Origin: a virus
Length of the DNA: 20,634 nt
IMG/VR virus record: IMGVR_UViG_3300017782_000293
Location: 1-20,634 of that record
Direction: 5' to 3' (one strand)
In this document: positions 1 through 14,301 of the stretch, one piece after another
Numbering within the stretch: the first letter of the stretch is position 1
How the letters are laid out: every line of letters starts with the position of its first letter
Translations under genes and position numbers: made by a program
The notes under the pieces: generated by a model
Told to the model about the DNA's origin: nothing
Database searches by the model: none
The model's input: only the letters and a program-made list of their open reading frames with translations

Positions 1-31
1 AGTAATTAATTAAATTAGTTTTATTATTCGC

Positions 32-60
32 TTGACTTTAAAGACTTTATATGCTATAAT
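32..60 (+). promoter_or_regulatory. sigma70-type early promoter P1
   Basis: TTGACT at 32-37 and a perfect TATAAT at 55-60 are separated by exactly 17 bp, a near-consensus host sigma70 promoter. It points into the early genes and lies in AT-rich DNA with no coding frame (1-157). By analogy with the tandem A1-A3 promoters of T7 it probably serves host RNA polymerase before the phage enzyme is made. The call rests on motif and spacing only. Confidence 0.75.
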
Positions 61-105
61 AATATTAACAATCAAAATAGAGTCTTATAAAGATAATAAT
101 AAAAA

Positions 106-139
106 TAGTTTTATTAATGTGTTGACTTTTTAAGACTTT
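106..139 (+). repeat. imperfect direct repeat of the promoter segment (copy 1 at 16-48)
   Basis: Positions 16-48 and 106-139 align over about 33 bases with one single-base gap and a few mismatches. Both start TAGTTTTATTA and contain TTGACTTT followed by AAGACTTT. The shared segment includes the -35 box and part of the spacer of each promoter, so the tandem promoters look like products of a small duplication. Confidence 0.6.
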
Positions 140-150
140 TCTGGTAGTAT
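122..150 (+). promoter_or_regulatory. sigma70-type early promoter P2
   Basis: TTGACT at 122-127 and TAGTAT at 145-150 have 17-bp spacing. The element is a diverged copy of P1, 90 bp downstream, sharing the upstream TAGTTTTATTA stretch and the downstream AAGACTTT. The two promoters sit in tandem ahead of the first early genes. The -10 is weaker than that of P1. Confidence 0.65.
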
Positions 151-220
151 TATATTTATGAAAGTGGGAGAAAGAGTTAAAAAATCTTTAAAAGAATTTA
201 AATTTCTTTTAAATAAATTA

Positions 221-235
221 GTTGACATTGTCAAC
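221..235. promoter_or_regulatory. GTTGACA palindrome, copy 1 (possible operator)
   Basis: GTTGACA-T-TGTCAAC is a perfect 7-bp inverted repeat around a single central base. The same palindrome with the opposite central base recurs at 1029-1043, and both copies are preceded by AAATTAGTTGACA. Such symmetry is typical of a dimeric repressor or activator site. It lies between promoter P2 and the first clear gene. No regulator gene with an obvious DNA-binding motif is visible in the window, so the binding protein could be a host factor. Confidence 0.5.
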
Positions 236-259
236 TATTAAAGAAAGGTAAGGAAAATA

Positions 260-376
260 ATGAAATTGGAATGGATTGAAGAAATTGAAGAAAATGAAGA
301 CCTTTATAAATCTTTTATGTCTGACGAAGACTATAAAGAATTTAAAAAGTATTGCAAGAAAACAAAGACTGACTAA
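260..376 (+). CDS. small acidic early protein (38 aa), unknown function
   Basis: An open frame of 38 codons starts at ATG 260 after the ribosome-binding sequence AAGGA (250-254), 5 nt upstream, and ends at TAA 374-376. The protein begins MKLEWIEEIEENEDLYKSF; its first half is very acidic and its last dozen residues are Lys-rich. I do not recognise it. It lies directly downstream of the tandem host promoters and the first palindrome, where T7-like phages keep small host-takeover genes, so a host-interacting role is plausible but only inferred. Evidence for it being real is the good ribosome-binding site, the position and the tight frame. Its length alone proves nothing. Confidence 0.55.
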   Translation: MKLEWIEEIEENEDLYKSFMSDEDYKEFKKYCKKTKTD

Positions 377-428
377 GTCTATAAAATAGTTATGATCTTT
401 GACATCTGAATAAAGTTTAATTACTTAC

Positions 429-463
429 AACCATTTTAATTTTCTTGCAAATGGTTTGCAAGA
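429..463 (+). promoter_or_regulatory. leader with two mutually exclusive hairpins
   Basis: AACCATTT (429-436) pairs with AAATGGTT (449-456), an 8-bp stem. TCTTGCAAA (443-451) pairs perfectly with TTTGCAAGA (455-463), a 9-bp stem with a 3-nt loop. The two stems share bases 449-456, so only one can form at a time. The element ends 37 nt before the start codon at 501. Alternative structures in a leader suggest attenuation or control of translation, but no ligand or T-tract is evident. Confidence 0.4.
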
Positions 464-500
464 TTTAAAAGTAACTAATAAAAATAAGGAGAATAAAGAA

Positions 501-938
501 ATGAGTAATGCTAAAGTAGTTAAGTTCGCTAAAGAGTTCAACAACATTAATGATCTTGTAAGATTATCAAGAGAATATGGTTCTGTTCAGAGTCAATTCA
601 CTTGTAAAGTCTTAGAAGATGTTAAAAGACTTGAAACCTTTAAAAGGTTTGCGAAAGAAGTTTACAAGCATGTATGTCTTCAACATAATTGTGAGTCTAA
701 AAAAGACTTGCCAAATGATGATGCTCTTAAACATTATCAAAATACTGCTAAACTTCTTTCAAGAGCTAAAAAAGAGTTAAAGTCTTCCTTAGGTGTTGAA
801 GAACCTAAAAAAGTTACTAAGTCTGCAAGACTTAAAAGTCTTGAGAAGTCTTTGGAGTTCTGCAAAACTTCTTCACAACTTAAAAAGTACATTGAAGACT
901 TAGAAAAGAAATATGAAAAAGCAAAGAATGCTAAATAG
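501..938 (+). CDS. Lys-rich early protein (145 aa), unknown function
   Basis: The chosen start is ATG 501, preceded by AAGGAG (486-491) at 9-nt spacing. The frame is open back to 456, but that upstream ATG has no ribosome-binding site and lies inside the leader hairpins. The protein is rich in Lys, Glu, Leu and Ser. Its C-terminal third, ending SQLKKYIEDLEKKYEKAK, looks strongly helical and may form a coiled coil. There is no signal peptide or membrane segment, and I recognise no family. Codon use is far more AT-rich than in the genes after 1100, and the AAGACTT word is dense in this region. A strong terminator follows at 955-996, so it is probably the last gene of the first early transcript. 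A host-takeover or nucleic-acid-binding role is possible but not shown. Confidence 0.75.
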   Translation: MSNAKVVKFAKEFNNINDLVRLSREYGSVQSQFTCKVLEDVKRLETFKRFAKEVYKHVCLQHNCESKKDLPNDDALKHYQNTAKLLSRAKKELKSSLGVEEPKKVTKSARLKSLEKSLEFCKTSSQLKKYIEDLEKKYEKAKNAK

Positions 939-954
939 TTAGCAAGTCTTAATA

Positions 955-996
955 GAGTTCGTAAGATCGTAAAGGTCTTGCGAACTTTATTTTTTT
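955..996 (+). terminator. intrinsic terminator after the first early unit
   Basis: AGTTCGTAAGA (956-966) pairs with TCTTGCGAACT (976-986), an 11-bp stem with one G-U pair and a 9-nt loop, followed by a T-rich run to 996. It lies 17 nt after the stop codon at 938, and would stop host RNA polymerase coming from P1 and P2 before the amidoligase and RNA polymerase genes. Confidence 0.85.
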
Positions 997-1028
997 ACTA
1001 ATATGATTAATATCTTTAAAAGAAATTA

Positions 1029-1043
1029 GTTGACAATGTCAAC
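1029..1043. promoter_or_regulatory. GTTGACA palindrome, copy 2 (possible operator)
   Basis: GTTGACA-A-TGTCAAC repeats the palindrome at 221-235. About 10 bases upstream (ATCTTTAAAAGAA) also match a segment upstream of copy 1. This copy overlaps the -35 hexamer of the candidate promoter at 1030-1058, which would suit a repressor competing with RNA polymerase. Confidence 0.55.
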
Positions 1044-1058
1044 TTTTCAAAATGTACT
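1030..1058 (+). promoter_or_regulatory. candidate promoter restarting transcription after the terminator
   Basis: A consensus -35 TTGACA (1030-1035) is followed after 17 bp by TGTACT (1053-1058), a 4/6 match to the -10 consensus. It lies between the terminator at 955-996 and the gene at 1104. Some such promoter is expected if the amidoligase and RNA polymerase genes are read by host RNA polymerase. The -10 is imperfect, so confidence is moderate. Confidence 0.4.
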
Positions 1059-1103
1059 GTGTGTACTAACAAAAAATACAAACCCAGAAGGGAAAGGAAA
1101 CAA

Positions 1104-1364
1104 ATGAGTGATAGAATCAAATACGAAAAAAGTTCTTCAGCGTTGCCAGATAGGTACGAAGAAGAAACAGGTGGGTGGGAAGTACAACCTACCTATGTAC
1201 AATGGCTAGAAAGCAAGGTCAGAGCATACGAAGAGGACAACCTAGACAGGCAGTTGAAGTCTGTGATAGCTAAGAATGAATCGTACTTCAAACGAACAGA
1301 GATGCTCATTCACGGTGACTTGCGTGACGCACTAGACGCAGGTTGGGGGGAGTGGATACGATGA
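1104..1364 (+). CDS. hypothetical early protein (86 aa)
   Basis: I chose ATG 1104, with GGGAAAGGA just upstream, over the frame's first ATG at 1059, which has no ribosome-binding site and overlaps the candidate promoter. A very similar leader, CAGAAGGGAAA, precedes the amidotransferase gene at 1698. The protein is hydrophilic, with a central segment GGWEVQPTYVQWLESKV and a charged helical stretch after it; no family is recognised. Its stop codon overlaps the next start (ATGA at 1361-1364), so translation of the next gene is probably coupled. It opens a set of three tightly linked small genes ahead of the amidoligase cassette. Confidence 0.65.
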   Translation: MSDRIKYEKSSSALPDRYEEETGGWEVQPTYVQWLESKVRAYEEDNLDRQLKSVIAKNESYFKRTEMLIHGDLRDALDAGWGEWIR

Positions 1365-1471
1365 GTGATGACTGGAAAGAGTTCGTGTGGCTGTTAGTGG
1401 GTTGTGTTCTTATGAGCCTACTAGCAGGTGAGATGTTCGTGTACTTCGTTGAGATGGGGAGATTGATATGA
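1361..1471 (+). CDS. single-pass membrane microprotein (36 aa)
   Basis: ATG 1361 overlaps the upstream stop, and its own TGA (1469-1471) overlaps the ATG (1468) of the next gene: two ATGA junctions in a row. The sequence is a short polar N-terminus, a hydrophobic stretch of about 20 residues (FVWLLVGCVLMSLLAGEMFV, residues 8-27), then FVEMGRLI. It has the look of one transmembrane helix. The perfect fit between two overlapping neighbours is the main evidence that it is a real gene. Function is unknown; small membrane proteins in early phage regions may alter the host envelope or exclude other phages, but nothing here shows that. Confidence 0.6.
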   Translation: MSDDWKEFVWLLVGCVLMSLLAGEMFVYFVEMGRLI

Positions 1472-1677
1472 ACTCACCACTACTGTTTACAAGCAGAAGC
1501 AACAAACGAGATACAAGAGACAAGCATCTACTGGAGAAGTATCCAGATATAGAGAACGAAGCAGAACGGTATTTAACTGTGGACTGCAAGGACTTGATTA
1601 CTTACAAGACCAAAATAAAAAAGGAACACGGTGAGGAGTACCTCCGAGCTGTGGAAGTATACGCACTTAACATCTAA
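1468..1677 (+). CDS. hypothetical early protein (69 aa)
   Basis: ATG 1468 overlaps the preceding stop, and GGGGAG lies about 6 nt upstream. The protein is hydrophilic and basic, with no membrane segment and no family that I recognise; the second half (KIKKEHGEEYLRAVEVYALN) looks helical. It is the last of the three coupled small genes and is followed after about 20 nt by the first glutamine amidotransferase gene, so it is likely cotranscribed with the amidoligase cassette. Whether it works with that system cannot be told. Confidence 0.65.
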   Translation: MNSPLLFTSRSNKRDTRDKHLLEKYPDIENEAERYLTVDCKDLITYKTKIKKEHGEEYLRAVEVYALNI

Positions 1678-1697
1678 CCAGAAGGGAAACTAATGAA

Positions 1698-2582
1698 ATG
1701 TGTGTAGCAATAATCAAACCCGAAGGTGTAGCATTGCCTTCGGATGAAGTACTAGAGAGGTGCTTCATTCACAATCCAGATGGTGCAGGTATTGCTGTGC
1801 CATCTGTGGGAGGGGCTGAAATATCCAAGGGGTATTTCGACTTCGATCAGTACTTGGAAGCTGTCAAAAGCATGGTGACTACCAAGAAACTAGCGTTCCT
1901 TCACATGAGGATAGCTACGCTTGGTCAAGTGGATGAGGGTAACTGTCATCCGTTTCCATTGTGTGATGACTACGAACTAATGAGGAACATGGAACTAGTA
2001 CAGGTAGGTACTGTGATGATGCACAATGGTACGTTCGATATGGACAACGAGGTAGACTCTGTGTCCGATACGATGACCTTTGCAAAAGCTGTGTACACAT
2101 CGGGACTAGATCCTTTCAAGGACTCCAGTAGGTTCTTGATAGATCAGATCGCACATCCTTGCAGGGTGGCTTTCATGCGTGGTGAGCATTGGACTACATT
2201 CGGTAAGTGGGAGACAAAGGACGGCTGTATGTTTTCCAATGACTCCTTCAGGAGACCTGTGTACCCAAAAGCTCATATGCACTCTCGAACATGGAGTACT
2301 GGGGCTGGCACTTGGACTAGTAAAGACGGGTACAAGTTGTACTCTAAAGACTATCTAGAGCCAGAGCAGATAGAGCAGGTTGCTCTTGGCTATGATCCTC
2401 TTGATGGGAGTGTGTTAACAGATAACCACAGAGGCACATCTAGTAAGTACGACTATAGTGTCATTGTAAAGTGGCTCAACGAGGCTGACGATAGGGAGTT
2501 GCGATTGTCAGGTGTAGATAAGGAAACTATAAAGTACTGTCAAGAGTACAGAAAGGTGAAACAAAATGGAATCATCAAGTAA
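1698..2582 (+). CDS. class II glutamine amidotransferase-like protein, copy 1
   Basis: The start MCVAIIKPEG puts Cys at position 2, so removal of Met exposes an N-terminal cysteine, the nucleophile of class II (Ntn-type) glutamine amidotransferases. Other PurF-like active-site motifs follow in order: HMRIATLG (69-76, Arg71), CHPFP (83-87), MMHNG (107-111, the Asn-Gly oxyanion pair) and SDTM (123-126, Asp124). These predict hydrolysis of glutamine to glutamate and ammonia. The start is fixed by the Cys: a nearby ATG at 1693 gives only MKCV. The ~150-residue C-terminal part has no motif I recognise. The gene overlaps the amidoligase gene by 17 nt, implying coupled translation and joint action. 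The protein is paralogous to the one at 4004-4846. Fold and catalytic residues are clear; the acceptor substrate is unknown. Confidence 0.82.
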   Translation: MCVAIIKPEGVALPSDEVLERCFIHNPDGAGIAVPSVGGAEISKGYFDFDQYLEAVKSMVTTKKLAFLHMRIATLGQVDEGNCHPFPLCDDYELMRNMELVQVGTVMMHNGTFDMDNEVDSVSDTMTFAKAVYTSGLDPFKDSSRFLIDQIAHPCRVAFMRGEHWTTFGKWETKDGCMFSNDSFRRPVYPKAHMHSRTWSTGAGTWTSKDGYKLYSKDYLEPEQIEQVALGYDPLDGSVLTDNHRGTSSKYDYSVIVKWLNEADDRELRLSGVDKETIKYCQEYRKVKQNGIIK

Positions 2583-3999
2583 GAAAGCTATTAGGAATGT
2601 CCTAAGCTATCTTCATCATCACTCTGAGTTCAGAGGTGAGTGTAGGCTAACGCTTAGAGACCAGAAGTATCTTACCTTAGTTAGAAAGTGGACTGGATGG
2701 TCAAGGTATATATACGACTTAGCAGGTCAACGTATCTTTGTGAAAGGTGCGGAAATCCACGGTCATCTTAGAGGTAGGCTACCATTGCAGTCGTCGGATA
2801 CTACAATCAATGAGAGCGTTGATTCTATCATGCTTCTGTCACTAGACGAAACACTGCTATGTGTGGAAACTGAGGAGGGAGGCTATACTGCTCGTTTACC
2901 GCTAGAGTGGTTCGAAGAAACGTATGAGTACTGTTACGAAAATGTTTCACAGTATTGGATCTGTGATGGCTCAAGGGACATAGTCGCTGGTCACAGATGG
3001 GAGGCTCCTCTCATCAATGGTCACAGGTACTGTCAGGATCACTTGGATAGGTACTTCGTACATTGCGTAGAATCAGGTGAATACGATGACAGTCGAGAGA
3101 TGGTAAAGACTCCAAGAGGTTGGATGACTAGACTAGCTGTGCAAACATCAGAGTTCAGAACCTGTAATAGTTGTGGTAACTTAGCACACGAGAGCTTGTA
3201 CATATCCTTGTGCAACTCTTGTGGTGACCAACAACAATATGATGCTGACAATAGGAGTTATTCTTCAGAGTATCACTCATGTTATCATTGGAAGAAGCAT
3301 ATCTTGGATGACGAGGATGAAGATGTTGTCCTGTACGGCTGTGAGATCGAGGTTGACAATGGACAGCGTGAAGATTCGCTTGACCTTGAGGATATTAGAA
3401 GTCACGATCTAGTAGCTGACATCCAATCAGATGGTAGCTTGGAGCAAGGTTTCGAGGTTATCACTCATCCTTCTTCTCATGGATACCTGAAGGTACATCT
3501 AGGTGACGTAGTACAAGACTCCATGGAGTACATGGATTGTGAGTACGAACACAAAGCTGGCTTTCATGTTCATGTGGGCAGAAGTCATCTAAGTGGTGAT
3601 GCTTGTAAGAGACTTGACTACTTTGTCCACAGGTACAGAGAAGAAGTAACTCAATTGGCTTATCGTGACAGTGATGAGTGGGCTGGCTTCAACAAGGACA
3701 TCAATGATAGGTTCGATCTGTTCGGTAAAAGCAACTCAAGATATGAAGCTATCAACTTCAATAACGATAGAACAATAGAGTTCCGTATGTTTGCTCCTCC
3801 GCCTACCAAGGGTAGAGTAGATATGTACTTGGACTTTGTGAAGTCTGTGGTAGAATACTGTAGACTCACAACTAACTATCATGTTCAAGAGGAGAATGCT
3901 TGGAGGGATTACGTCAAGTATGTGAAAGCCAATAGGCACACCTATGACGTACTAATAAAACATCGGTTGTTCAGAGACCTAATGACAGAAGGAGTATAA
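2566..3999 (+). CDS. amidoligase (glutamine synthetase-like carboxylate-amine ligase) with zinc ribbon
   Basis: This 477-aa protein has an N-terminal region of unknown type (1-195), a zinc ribbon with Cys200, Cys203, Cys216 and Cys219, and a C-terminal amidoligase domain from about 250. Motifs of that family (Pfam amidoligase_2-like) are YGCEIEVD (257-264), SDGSLEQGFEVITHP (288-302), GFHVHVG (332-338) and INFNNDRTIEFRMFA (396-410). The Glu and His residues match the metal/ATP-binding acids of the GCS/GS fold. The expected reaction is ATP-dependent joining of an amine or ammonia to a carboxyl group. Comparative work on amidoligases has reported neighbouring class II glutamine amidotransferases in many genomes, and here they flank both sides (17-nt overlap upstream, 4-nt gap downstream). 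A further His/Cys-rich patch (C133-H159) could bind a second metal. The substrate, possibly a peptide, protein or cell-wall carboxylate, cannot be read from sequence. Confidence 0.85.
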   Translation: MESSSKKAIRNVLSYLHHHSEFRGECRLTLRDQKYLTLVRKWTGWSRYIYDLAGQRIFVKGAEIHGHLRGRLPLQSSDTTINESVDSIMLLSLDETLLCVETEEGGYTARLPLEWFEETYEYCYENVSQYWICDGSRDIVAGHRWEAPLINGHRYCQDHLDRYFVHCVESGEYDDSREMVKTPRGWMTRLAVQTSEFRTCNSCGNLAHESLYISLCNSCGDQQQYDADNRSYSSEYHSCYHWKKHILDDEDEDVVLYGCEIEVDNGQREDSLDLEDIRSHDLVADIQSDGSLEQGFEVITHPSSHGYLKVHLGDVVQDSMEYMDCEYEHKAGFHVHVGRSHLSGDACKRLDYFVHRYREEVTQLAYRDSDEWAGFNKDINDRFDLFGKSNSRYEAINFNNDRTIEFRMFAPPPTKGRVDMYLDFVKSVVEYCRLTTNYHVQEENAWRDYVKYVKANRHTYDVLIKHRLFRDLMTEGV

Positions 4000-4003
4000 C
4001 AAA

Positions 4004-4846
4004 ATGTGTATAGCAATAGTAAAACCAGCAGGAGCAAACGTTCCTAGCTATGATAGAATACTGAACTCGTGGGAGTCCAACCAAGATGGTGGTGGCTTCG
4101 CAGTTCAACGAAAAGGTAAGACTCTCATCAAGTATGAGAAAGGTTACTTCGATATGGATAAGTACTACAACAAGTTAGTAGACACCATTAAACCAGAGGA
4201 CACAGCATTGATCCACATGAGGATCACTACTCATGGTGGTACGTCTAAAGAATGTTGTCATCCTTTCCCTATCAGCCAGGACTACGACAATATGCGTGAG
4301 ACTCATGGCAAGTGTAAAAAGATAATGATGCACAACGGAATACTAGGTGGTGCGTTTGGTCAGGTGGACAAGCCTGGAGTGTCAGACACTATGGAGTTGG
4401 TCAAGTATCTAGCTAAGGCTAACTTAGATACGTACGGTGAAGGCTTCCAAAGACTTATGGAACCTATCCTAGGGTCAGGTAACAAAGTGGCTGTACTAAC
4501 AGAAGATGGGTACACACTAGCAGGTAAGGGTTGGATTAAAGAAGACGATGGGTGCTACTACTCTAACGGTACTTACGAGGATTACTACGCTAAGTATTGT
4601 GGCTACAATAACAACTTCTCGTTCAAGCCTTCCAAAGCTAAGAAGAAGTCCAATCACTTCAAGAAGAAGACTCTCAACAGAGGATACAACAAGGTGTACA
4701 ACTACAAGAAAGTGGATGTTACTAGCTTGCCATCACACGACCAAGATGACATACTATCGTCTGTATGTCCTTCGTGCTTGCAATTTATGCCTGACGCTGT
4801 GTATGGTGATACGGTTTGTAAGTATTGTAACATTGAATATAATTAA
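4004..4846 (+). CDS. class II glutamine amidotransferase-like protein, copy 2, with C-terminal zinc ribbon
   Basis: The N-terminus MCIAIVKPAG again places the nucleophile Cys at position 2. HMRITTHGG (71-79, Arg73), CCHPFP (84-89), MMHNG (108-112) and SDTM (127-130, Asp128) match copy 1 and the PurF-type active site, so glutamine hydrolysis is expected. After residue ~195 comes a Lys-rich linker, and the C-terminus carries a CxxC-CxxC zinc ribbon (Cys255, Cys258, Cys272, Cys275) that copy 1 lacks. The start has AAGGAG (3989-3994) at 9-nt spacing and follows the amidoligase stop by 4 nt. The two copies probably arose by duplication; one may feed ammonia to the ligase while the other contacts a different partner or target. 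Roles beyond the fold are inference. Confidence 0.82.
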   Translation: MCIAIVKPAGANVPSYDRILNSWESNQDGGGFAVQRKGKTLIKYEKGYFDMDKYYNKLVDTIKPEDTALIHMRITTHGGTSKECCHPFPISQDYDNMRETHGKCKKIMMHNGILGGAFGQVDKPGVSDTMELVKYLAKANLDTYGEGFQRLMEPILGSGNKVAVLTEDGYTLAGKGWIKEDDGCYYSNGTYEDYYAKYCGYNNNFSFKPSKAKKKSNHFKKKTLNRGYNKVYNYKKVDVTSLPSHDQDDILSSVCPSCLQFMPDAVYGDTVCKYCNIEYN

Positions 4847-5061: not shown

Positions 5062-7497
5062 ATGGACATGGGAATGTATGACCAACAACTAGAGTTGGAA
5101 AACCAGTCCATAGAGATAACACTAGATAGGTACAAAAAATCTCTCAAGGAGATGGAGGATAGAGGAAGGTCAGGAGAAACAAAGCCTGTGATACTTTTAA
5201 TCTCTCGATCAACAGAAGAGTTAGCTAAGGCTATAGAATCATGGATGTACCCTACGGAAAAGAATCGTGGGTGGAACGCAGGTAGAAAAGCTACCACTAG
5301 ATCAATGATGAAGTCCTTAGATCTCTCACCTTTTGAGATAGCCTTCTGTACCTTGAAGGTAGTGTTTAACTCTGTGGTAAGTGATAAAGGAGACTTCGCT
5401 AGGCAGACAGCTATCTGTATGAGCCTGGCGGATACTCTCATTCACGAAGCAAACTACAGGAAGTTTAAGAGAGAGCAACCTAAGATGCTGCGATCTATAC
5501 AAACTCATGTAGGACACTTGGATACTTATAAGTTCAAGGAGTTAGAGTTCGTAGAGAAAGCTATGGACGAGAAGGGTATCCTCAAGTGTCATCTAGATGC
5601 TGAAGATAAACTACGTCTAGGTCACAAGTTACTTGAGTTGTGTATAGAAGTTACAGGAATGTTTGAATCTAAACGAATCAAGCTGAGTAGAAACAGATCA
5701 CCGTTTGTAGTAATGATAACTAAAGAGATCCAAAAGTTTATAGAAACTAGTGGTGACATCTTAGCTTTCTTCACTCCTACTTACAGACCTATGATAGTTC
5801 CTCCTATAAACTGGACAGGACTTTACACAGGAGGTTATCTATCTAATCACCCTAACTGGAAGCCAGACTTCATACGGAGGATGACGATACAACAGAGGGA
5901 GATGCTCAAGGAGGAAGACTTAACAAAAGCTATGGAGGCTGTGAATATAGCACAGCAGACCAAGTGGAAGATCAATACAGATGTGTTGGAAGTTATGCAG
6001 GATCTGTGGTTTGAAGAAGGTGGCGGAGATGCTGGTCTTCCTAACGCAGACCCAGTACCTTTACCGCCCAGACCTTGGGCTGATATGAGTAAGCAGGAAT
6101 GGGCAGAATACAAAGAATATAATAAAGAAGAAGTATCTAAGTATTCCAAAGCCTGTGCTGACATCTACACAGAGAACAGAGAGATGACATCTAAACGTCT
6201 AGCGTTACTGATGCAGATGGAAATAGCTAAACAGTATAGTGAGTATGATGTGTTCTACTTTCCATGGAATCTAGACTTTAGAGGTAGGATGTATCCCATA
6301 CCTACTACACTCAACCCACAGTCAAATGATATAGGCAAGGGGTTGTTGCAATTCGCTGATGGTCAACGACTTACAGAGAGAGGGTTGTACTGGTGGAAGG
6401 TAGGTTGTGCTAATGCCTTTGGCTTCGACAAGTCAGACTTTGAATCAAGAGTCAAATGGTTCGATGAGAACGAGGAGTGGATAGCTAATGCAGGTAGAGA
6501 TCCCTACTTTGAGCACGGTTGGAGAGTTGCTGATAACCCATTCCAATTCTTAGCATACTGTATCGAGTACGCTAAAGGTGATGGTATCTCTTACTTACCT
6601 GTAAACATGGATGGTACTTGCAACGGCTTACAGCACTTGTCAGCTATGACGCTAGACCCTGTAGGTGGTAAGGCTGTTAACTTACTAGACTCAGACGAAC
6701 CTCAAGACATCTACACAGAAGTAGCTGAAGAACTTAAAGAGCAACTAAAGGTAGATGACGAAGACGGAGTGAACAGACAATGGTGTCAACTATGGCAAGA
6801 CAAGATTGATAGGAAGCTAGTTAAGTCAGGTACTATGACTACACCTTATGGGGTGAGTGAGTACGGAATGAAGGATCAGATACTTGACCAGGCTAAGGAC
6901 AAACTAGAGGGATATACAGTAGACAAGTTTAAAGCCTCTGTATACCTAGCTGAAAAGCTTGGAGAATCCATCAGGAACGTAGTAGTAGGTGCTAGACGTA
7001 CTATGGACTGGTTTGAAGCTGTCGTTGACGAGAGCCCACAGCAGTTCCTTAGATGGCGTACCCCATTGACAGACTTTCCTGTCATACAAAGCTACCAGAG
7101 GAGTAAGAAGAAGAGAGTTAACTTGTTTGTTGGCAGTCAGAGAGTACAGCTACACCTTCAGAAGGCTGTTAACTTACCTGCTGAGGGTAAACAGAAGTCA
7201 GGGTTTAGTCCTAACTTCGTACATAGTATTGATGCTTGTATGTTGATGGCTACAATCTCAAGACTTAGAAGTAAGTGTGGGGCTACAGAGTTCTCGTTGA
7301 TACACGATTCTTATGGCACTCACGCTAATCATGTAGACCATCTACATAAAATATTAAGGGAAGTATTCGTTGAAATATATAGGAATGGCGATATACTTCA
7401 AGATATTAAGGAGCAGTTAGGAGCCACTACTGAACCGCCGAAAAATGGCGAGTTAGATGTGACTGAGGTATTGACAAGTAAGTACTTCTTCCATTAA
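5062..7497 (+). CDS. T7-like single-subunit RNA polymerase
   Basis: The 811-aa product (T7 gp1 is 883) has all catalytic motifs. DFRGRMYP (405-412) matches T7 Asp421-Arg425. MDGTCNGLQHLSAM (516-529) carries Asp517, equivalent to metal-binding Asp537. RKLVKSGTMTTPYG (584-597) matches the O-helix region, with Lys588 as Lys631 and Tyr596 as Tyr639. HDSYGTHA (748-755) carries Asp749, equivalent to Asp812. The C-terminus ends YFFH, an aromatic end like the FAFA foot of T7. It transcribes the replication and virion genes from phage promoters. AAAGGAG (5049-5055) precedes ATG 5062; Met codons 3 and 5 are alternatives. The gene comes after the amidoligase cassette, so that cassette is expressed no later than the polymerase. 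A candidate promoter for this enzyme overlaps its stop codon. Confidence 0.97.
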   Translation: MDMGMYDQQLELENQSIEITLDRYKKSLKEMEDRGRSGETKPVILLISRSTEELAKAIESWMYPTEKNRGWNAGRKATTRSMMKSLDLSPFEIAFCTLKVVFNSVVSDKGDFARQTAICMSLADTLIHEANYRKFKREQPKMLRSIQTHVGHLDTYKFKELEFVEKAMDEKGILKCHLDAEDKLRLGHKLLELCIEVTGMFESKRIKLSRNRSPFVVMITKEIQKFIETSGDILAFFTPTYRPMIVPPINWTGLYTGGYLSNHPNWKPDFIRRMTIQQREMLKEEDLTKAMEAVNIAQQTKWKINTDVLEVMQDLWFEEGGGDAGLPNADPVPLPPRPWADMSKQEWAEYKEYNKEEVSKYSKACADIYTENREMTSKRLALLMQMEIAKQYSEYDVFYFPWNLDFRGRMYPIPTTLNPQSNDIGKGLLQFADGQRLTERGLYWWKVGCANAFGFDKSDFESRVKWFDENEEWIANAGRDPYFEHGWRVADNPFQFLAYCIEYAKGDGISYLPVNMDGTCNGLQHLSAMTLDPVGGKAVNLLDSDEPQDIYTEVAEELKEQLKVDDEDGVNRQWCQLWQDKIDRKLVKSGTMTTPYGVSEYGMKDQILDQAKDKLEGYTVDKFKASVYLAEKLGESIRNVVVGARRTMDWFEAVVDESPQQFLRWRTPLTDFPVIQSYQRSKKKRVNLFVGSQRVQLHLQKAVNLPAEGKQKSGFSPNFVHSIDACMLMATISRLRSKCGATEFSLIHDSYGTHANHVDHLHKILREVFVEIYRNGDILQDIKEQLGATTEPPKNGELDVTEVLTSKYFFH

Positions 7498-7528
7498 CCT
7501 GCTCCCTATTAGGGTACTTAAAAGTACC
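7495..7528 (+). promoter_or_regulatory. candidate phage RNA polymerase promoter for the replication operon
   Basis: TAACCTGCTCCCTATTAGGG (7495-7514) recurs with one mismatch at 14271-14290, in the only two larger gaps that open the replication and virion operons. Its CTCCCTATTAGGG core resembles CTCACTATAGGG of the T7 consensus, suggesting initiation at the GGG (7512). The transcript would start with the hairpin GGTACTT-AA-AAGTACC (7513-7528), a 5' end stabilised much like T7 late mRNAs. It overlaps the stop codon of the polymerase gene. Confidence 0.6.
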
Positions 7529-14268: not shown

Positions 14269-14270
14269 GT

Positions 14271-14301
14271 TAACCTGCTCCCTAATAGGGAAAATAATCC
14301 C
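14271..14301 (+). promoter_or_regulatory. candidate phage RNA polymerase promoter for the virion operon
   Basis: TAACCTGCTCCCTAATAGGG (14271-14290) matches the element at 7495-7514 in 19 of 20 positions. It begins 2 nt after the T-tract of the upstream terminator. Initiation is expected near GGG 14288-14290, and the transcript could open with a short GGG/CCC stem (14288-14301). A second terminator lies about 30 nt further on. Confidence 0.6.

Follow-up and report, generated by a model that had tools for sequence, protein, structure and literature searches.

Paired palindromes in the early region of a T7-like phage as probable MexR-type operators for a regulator supplied in trans

Two perfect palindromes of the same sequence lie in the leaders of the two early units of a T7-like podovirus, and they are probably MexR-type operators of the MarR family that would place both units under a regulator supplied in trans. 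The window analysed here is a stretch of 20,634 nucleotides, positions 1 to 20,634 of IMG/VR record IMGVR_UViG_3300017782_000293. Site 1 is retained in one relative whose surrounding sequence has diverged, and the same sequence together with its flank marks MarR genes in bacteria. That a regulator binds the sites and represses, and where it comes from, we infer. An earlier sequence-only reading had proposed operators for a dimeric regulator; that proposal is supported, and the likely class can now be named as the MarR family, MexR-like.

The palindrome pair and the early region

By gene content (Pfam, PHROG) the window belongs to a T7-like podovirus, encoding a gp2.5-like SSB, endonuclease I, DNA polymerase, exonuclease, a head-tail connector and a major head protein in addition to the RNA polymerase. 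The first kilobase has a GC content of 21-32% versus 41-48% across the following 1.6 kb. The features that bear on the argument are as follows.

32-60, plus strand: P1, predicted early sigma70-type promoter, TTGACT-17-TATAAT with extended -10; 11/12 consensus; same in relative L004
122-150, plus strand: P2, predicted early sigma70-type promoter, TTGACT-17-TAGTAT with extended -10; same in L004
221-235, no strand: site 1, GTTGACATTGTCAAC, proposed MexR-type operator; extended palindrome 219-237
260-376, plus strand: first early ORF, 38 aa, acidic; no family; missing from L004
501-938, plus strand: second early ORF, 145 aa; no Pfam or PHROG family; low-confidence all-helical model
951-991, plus strand: intrinsic terminator ending the first early unit; 18 pairs, then a T-run
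1029-1043, no strand: site 2, GTTGACAATGTCAAC, proposed MexR-type operator; holds a candidate -35
-35 at 1030-1035 and -10 at 1053-1058: candidate promoter at site 2, TTGACA-17-TGTACT; weak -10; 10/12 consensus
1104-1364, plus strand: opening ORF of the second early unit, 86 aa; no Pfam or PHROG family
5062-7497, plus strand: RNA polymerase, T7-like single-subunit; PF00940, E 1.8e-101; phrog_414
7494-7514, plus strand: putative phage-RNA polymerase promoter TTAACCTGCTCCCTATTAGGG; second copy at 14270-14290

The palindrome GTTGACA-N-TGTCAAC occurs at 221-235 and 1029-1043, exactly where it was first placed, and a scan of the whole record found no third copy at one mismatch or fewer. The copies differ in the central base alone, as originally described. 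Because the site is palindromic, this difference amounts to T versus A, the same base pair read on opposite strands. Both sites share the half-site architecture GTTGA-N5-TCAAC, and the symmetry extends to 9-bp arms at site 1 (219-237) and 8-bp arms at site 2 (1028-1044). Among 400 dinucleotide shuffles of window 1-1100, comparable palindromes (arm of at least 7, gap of at most 1, at least 3 G/C per arm) had a mean of 0.03 and never occurred two at once (0/400). The flanks reported as shared were borne out: AAATTAG abuts both sites in register, and a TTA flank is found at both, but the upstream element ATCTTTAAAAGAA (184-196 and 1012-1024), while also shared, is separated from site 1 by 24 nt and from site 2 by 4 nt, so that AAATTAG is the sole part of the flank in register.

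Both sites are non-coding, each within the leader of one early unit, with the centre of site 1 lying 32 nt before the ATG at 260 and that of site 2 lying 68 nt before the ATG at 1104. By their sequence P1 and P2 are strong host-type promoters, and P2 transcripts would run into site 1 ~64 nt beyond their presumed start, just ahead of the first ribosome-binding site. The overlap of one site with a -35 box, as first noted, applies to site 2; TTGACA is present in both copies, but a passable -10 accompanies it at site 2 alone, and site 1 has no -10 at usable spacing. The 38-aa ORF gave no Pfam or PHROG match at E 0.001, and the single-sequence structure model of the 145-aa ORF (mean pLDDT 49.6) is too low in confidence to inform. 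Between 1698 and 4846, two class-II-glutamine-amidotransferase (GAT)-like ORFs flank an amidoligase-like ORF; the first GAT-like ORF and the amidoligase-like ORF gave weak, sub-cut-off Pfam matches, the second GAT-like ORF gave none, and phrog_2443 was matched in this region at E 1.1e-4. The repeats of TTAACCTGCTCCCTATTAGGG, of which a third copy lies near 7007 in record L013, are probably the promoter of the phage's own RNA polymerase. The palindromes were ruled out as promoters of that polymerase, with this separate T7-like motif sitting at 7494 and 14270.

Two other records span the early region. L013, which also supplies the terminase end, is 99.65% identical to window 1-4590, and L004 matches the window at 99.8% identity over bases 390 to 3976 and diverges ahead of base 390. 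In L004, the one diverged relative and thus a single comparison, the 19-mer of site 1, TTAGTTGACATTGTCAACT, is intact (19/19 bases), while the flanks match the window at 20/40 positions on the left and 12/40 on the right (null 12.4, sd 3.2). Site 1 was therefore kept where its flanks had diverged, and the operator proposal withstood the comparison that could have told against it. At site 2 neither the palindrome nor its flanks differ in L004 or L013, so this site is uninformative on conservation. An extended -10 promoter, TTGAAA-15-TATAAT, lies immediately ahead of site 1 in L004 (2163-2189). The 38-aa first early gene thus differs in presence between these close relatives (window 236-389 versus L004 2231-2251). 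Site-specific recombination bracketing a cassette is unsupported, as L004, without the 38-aa ORF, diverges on both sides of site 1 and has the 145-aa ORF in unchanged orientation. Queries with the RNA polymerase, the 145-aa ORF, the GAT-like and amidoligase-like ORFs and the P1 promoter returned only L004 and pieces of two contigs from sample 3300022074.

The same site beside bacterial MarR genes

PMC9892617 gives the operator of MexR, a MarR-family repressor, as GTTGA-N5-TCAAC in half-sites and spacing, and its PII oligonucleotide includes TTAGTTGACCTTATCAAC. Site 1 is identical to this PII site at 16/18 positions and site 2 at 15/18. Both phage sites carry the inverted GTTGA half-sites with the 5-bp spacer, both occupy a promoter or leader, and both are more symmetric than the natural PII site. 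The repABC parS consensus differs from the phage palindrome at its centre. BirA boxes (TTGTcAACC-N14-GGTTgACAA; PMC545781) were rejected on half-site order and spacing.

An exact scan for TTAGTTGACANTGTCAAC in prokaryote genomes, with one genome per species and MarR not assumed, gave 38 loci. A profile made from 9 of the proteins encoded next to these matches placed a MarR reading frame within 400 nt of the site in 23/38 loci; the 38 loci, 295,061 bases in total, contained only 3 further MarR frames, and in the remaining 15/38 loci the frame was missing beside the site. Pfam assigned MarR (PF01047) to 23 of the 59 flanking ORFs scanned, 7 of the 66 listed having been omitted, and to 9/10 hand-picked ORFs adjoining the site. 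At the 23 MarR loci the distance from the centre of the site to the MarR ATG had a median of 29 nt (range 11-117), compared with 32 nt at phage site 1, and a second GTTGA-N5-TCAAC-like site with at most one mismatch lay within 130 nt at 8/23. Two of the site-adjacent MarR proteins, tested singly against the PDB, each gave MexR as top match (E 1.7e-9 and 7.9e-20). Most of 16 aligned site-adjacent MarRs contain a DKAQxTR-like stretch, which we take to be the recognition helix of the family; MexR has RDKALITR.

It is the flanked site that marks MarR genes in this way and not the bare core. Without the TTA flank the core was not enriched, occurring in 6/369 gammaproteobacterial genomes against 7 matches for a reversed control, and only 1/6 of these core matches adjoined a MarR gene, in a genome that had been included for having the site. 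The inference of a MarR operator therefore needs the TTA flank.

In IMG/VR the flanked pattern was not over-represented (13 stretches against 12 for the reversed control), and independent cases are few, since 10 of the 13 come from one other phage family and 2 from this phage. Placement did separate the two patterns: 14/15 forward matches in viruses were intergenic, compared with 1/13 for the reversed pattern. The signal of the flanked site is thus in its position and not in its number. In the second phage family (L001-L003, L005-L008 and L010-L012), TTAGTTGACATTGTCAACTG lies between two genes over TTGACA-16-TATAAT, a perfect sigma70 promoter (for example at L001 1644-1658), and this is a second candidate for a MexR-type operator in phages. 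The family encodes an SNF2-type helicase that shares ~40% identity with its counterpart in Pseudomonas phage Rollin. One ORF of L003 looks like a winged-helix protein but has only a weak Pfam match (PF22194, E 0.095), and MarR matches in records of this family are also weak (best E 0.015).

Source of the regulator and alternative readings

The sequence-only reading allowed a regulator that was host-encoded or phage-encoded outside the window, and proposed a search for a helix-turn-helix gene elsewhere in the phage. No such gene was found in the available sequence, which runs up to either side of a stretch of a few kb between the non-overlapping contigs L022 and L013; this gap is bordered by internal-virion-type genes (T7_gp14 match). 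The MarR profile gave no gene in G000, G001 (which extends the window by about 6 kb), G002 or G003; a phage-MarR profile gave no match in the window, L013 or L022, and L004 is likewise without a MarR gene. No helix-turn-helix family appeared among the 25 of 38 families listed for the 34 phage ORFs scanned. Outside the gap, no integrase was recognised in ORFs of the window, L022 and L013 or among those 25 families, and neither a MarR nor an integrase gene was found between 1104 and the start of the RNA polymerase gene at 5062. Because the available phage sequence holds no cognate gene, a trans-acting protein of the host or a prophage is favoured over a phage protein. Of the two sources first suggested, the host side is therefore preferred and the phage-encoded side is left without a gene, although the regulator could be encoded in the gap or have an unrecognised fold. 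Most likely it is supplied by the host or by a prophage resident there.

An alternative is that the operators are a remnant or a working part of a phage-encoded MarR lysogeny switch. On this view the phage would stem from temperate T7-like ancestors that had a MarR-integrase module, and the regulator gene would have been lost, have diverged beyond recognition or lie in the gap. Published T7-like phages include some that have temperate features and encode a MarR of their own (PMC10134795), and the earlier remark that the pair is unexpected for a strictly lytic T7-like phage is accordingly only half correct. The annotations of LUZ100 and CRP-125 place MarR and an integrase ahead of the RNA polymerase, and the authors of LUZ100 propose that MarR represses the polymerase (same source). 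A MarR-like frame was present in 30/80 T7-like IMG/VR loci, a count in which the weakest matches may be spurious, several loci are truncated, and all were gathered with an RNA polymerase alignment in which two of the three rows came from MarR carriers. This phage shares with the MarR-controlled temperate phages the RNA polymerase, but the MarR gene before it and the integrase were not found in the sequence searched as above, and the unread gap falls among internal virion genes. The sites are also intact and kept, unlike a decaying relic, and the inverted repeats near the RNA polymerase in LUZ100 and CRP-125 differ in sequence from the phage palindromes. We consider a lysogeny switch of this kind unlikely.

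Twin GTTGA sites were absent from the 80 T7-like loci, many of which end before the early region and one of which (L079) is this phage's own second contig, and from LUZ100 and CRP-125. A single GTTGA-N5-TCAAC lies upstream of the RNA polymerase in L135, L137 and L139 and downstream in L110 and L154, and other repeated near-palindromes are present in LUZ100, L087, L106, L121 and L147. In LUZ100 (L020), the annotated host-type promoters P1 and P2 share the palindrome GCGCATAAGATGCGC at the -10 region (386-400 and 587-601), which may be either a further twin operator or a promoter duplication. L121 has six copies of GTGCAGTNACTGCAC (at 196, 989, 4086, 5766, 7923 and 8898), and in L106 a block of the palindromes AGGGAGATCATCTCCCT and AGGGGAATGATTCCCCT is duplicated 317 nt apart ahead of the RNA polymerase (160-243 and 477-560).

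The greater symmetry of the phage sites over MexR PII would suit a decoy role, in which perfect operators soak up a host MarR repressor as the phage replicates and thereby lift the repression of efflux or stress genes. There are two copies only, both in early-unit leaders, a placement needless for a decoy, and this reading is very unlikely. Slightly less probable still is that the palindromes act as RNA hairpins in the leaders of the early mRNAs, where they would serve stability or processing. Both sites do fold, with a stem of 7-8 bp and a 3-nt loop, but folding of the leaders is barely above that of shuffles (z -1.26 and -1.15), the two copies and the bacterial MarR operators have the same arms, free of compensatory changes, and the TTA flank, a DNA element, belongs to the signal. 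On a par with hairpins in its improbability is a small phage binder of the T7 Gp5.7 kind, a winged-helix repressor of early promoters: Gp5.7 adopts a wHTH fold resembling that of MarR and targets the -35 region of T7 A1 (PMC5569994), and several small window ORFs have no known family, but Gp5.7 binds weakly at that region and not to a palindromic operator, Pfam gave no winged-helix family in the phage ORFs scanned, and the likeness to bacterial MarR operators would be coincidence.

Proposed control and comparison with known systems

T7-like early regions are usually pictured as unregulated bursts of transcription by host RNA polymerase. Under the preferred reading, MexR-type operators for a regulator supplied in trans, host RNA polymerase would transcribe both early units, and a dimeric winged-helix repressor of the MarR family (MexR-like) would bind the palindrome in each leader. 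Site 1 falls between P1/P2 and the first start codon; since it has no usable -10 and lies well past the P2 start, a bound repressor would act as a roadblock to elongation. Site 2 follows the terminator of unit 1 and precedes unit 2, and its left arm doubles as the -35 box; a dimer sitting there would keep RNA polymerase from binding. The two early units, one of which leads to the phage RNA polymerase, would thus be repressed together, and departure of the repressor from the DNA would release them jointly. More tentatively, it is possible that in this T7-like phage without a recognisable lysogeny module the redox or small-molecule state of the host, acting via a MexR-like MarR, gates the start of infection.

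If the operators are true, infection may depend on the physiological state of the host or on a resident prophage, and the pair bears on the origin of virulent T7-like phages from temperate ancestors under MarR control. The exact 21-bp site and the regulator class named here can now be tested. MarR-type control is itself known; what appears to be new is the placing of such operators in the early region of a T7-like phage that has no recognisable gene for their regulator. A literature search found no description of MexR-type operators in a T7-like phage in the partial texts it reached, and the available part of PMC8070244 gives no operator sequence.

Among known systems, the PI and PII sites of MexR in mexR-mexAB-oprM of Pseudomonas aeruginosa (PMC9892617) resemble the phage pair in being two sites that overlap promoter elements. 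Unlike PI and PII, the phage sites are ~800 bp apart in two separate early units, are perfectly symmetric and have no regulator gene alongside. T7 Gp5.7 at the A1-A3 promoters (PMC5569994) resembles the proposed repressor as a winged-helix protein that silences early promoters of host RNA polymerase; it differs in being phage-encoded and in acting on -35 DNA and RNA polymerase with no palindromic operator pair. The MarR-integrase module of LUZ100 and CRP-125 lies just before the RNA polymerase, where this phage has the GAT-like and amidoligase-like genes, its palindromes being ~4-5 kb upstream of the polymerase. The RNA polymerases are nonetheless related (33-35% identity), and in those phages MarR-type control has been proposed for the step to the phage RNA polymerase (PMC10134795), as it is here.
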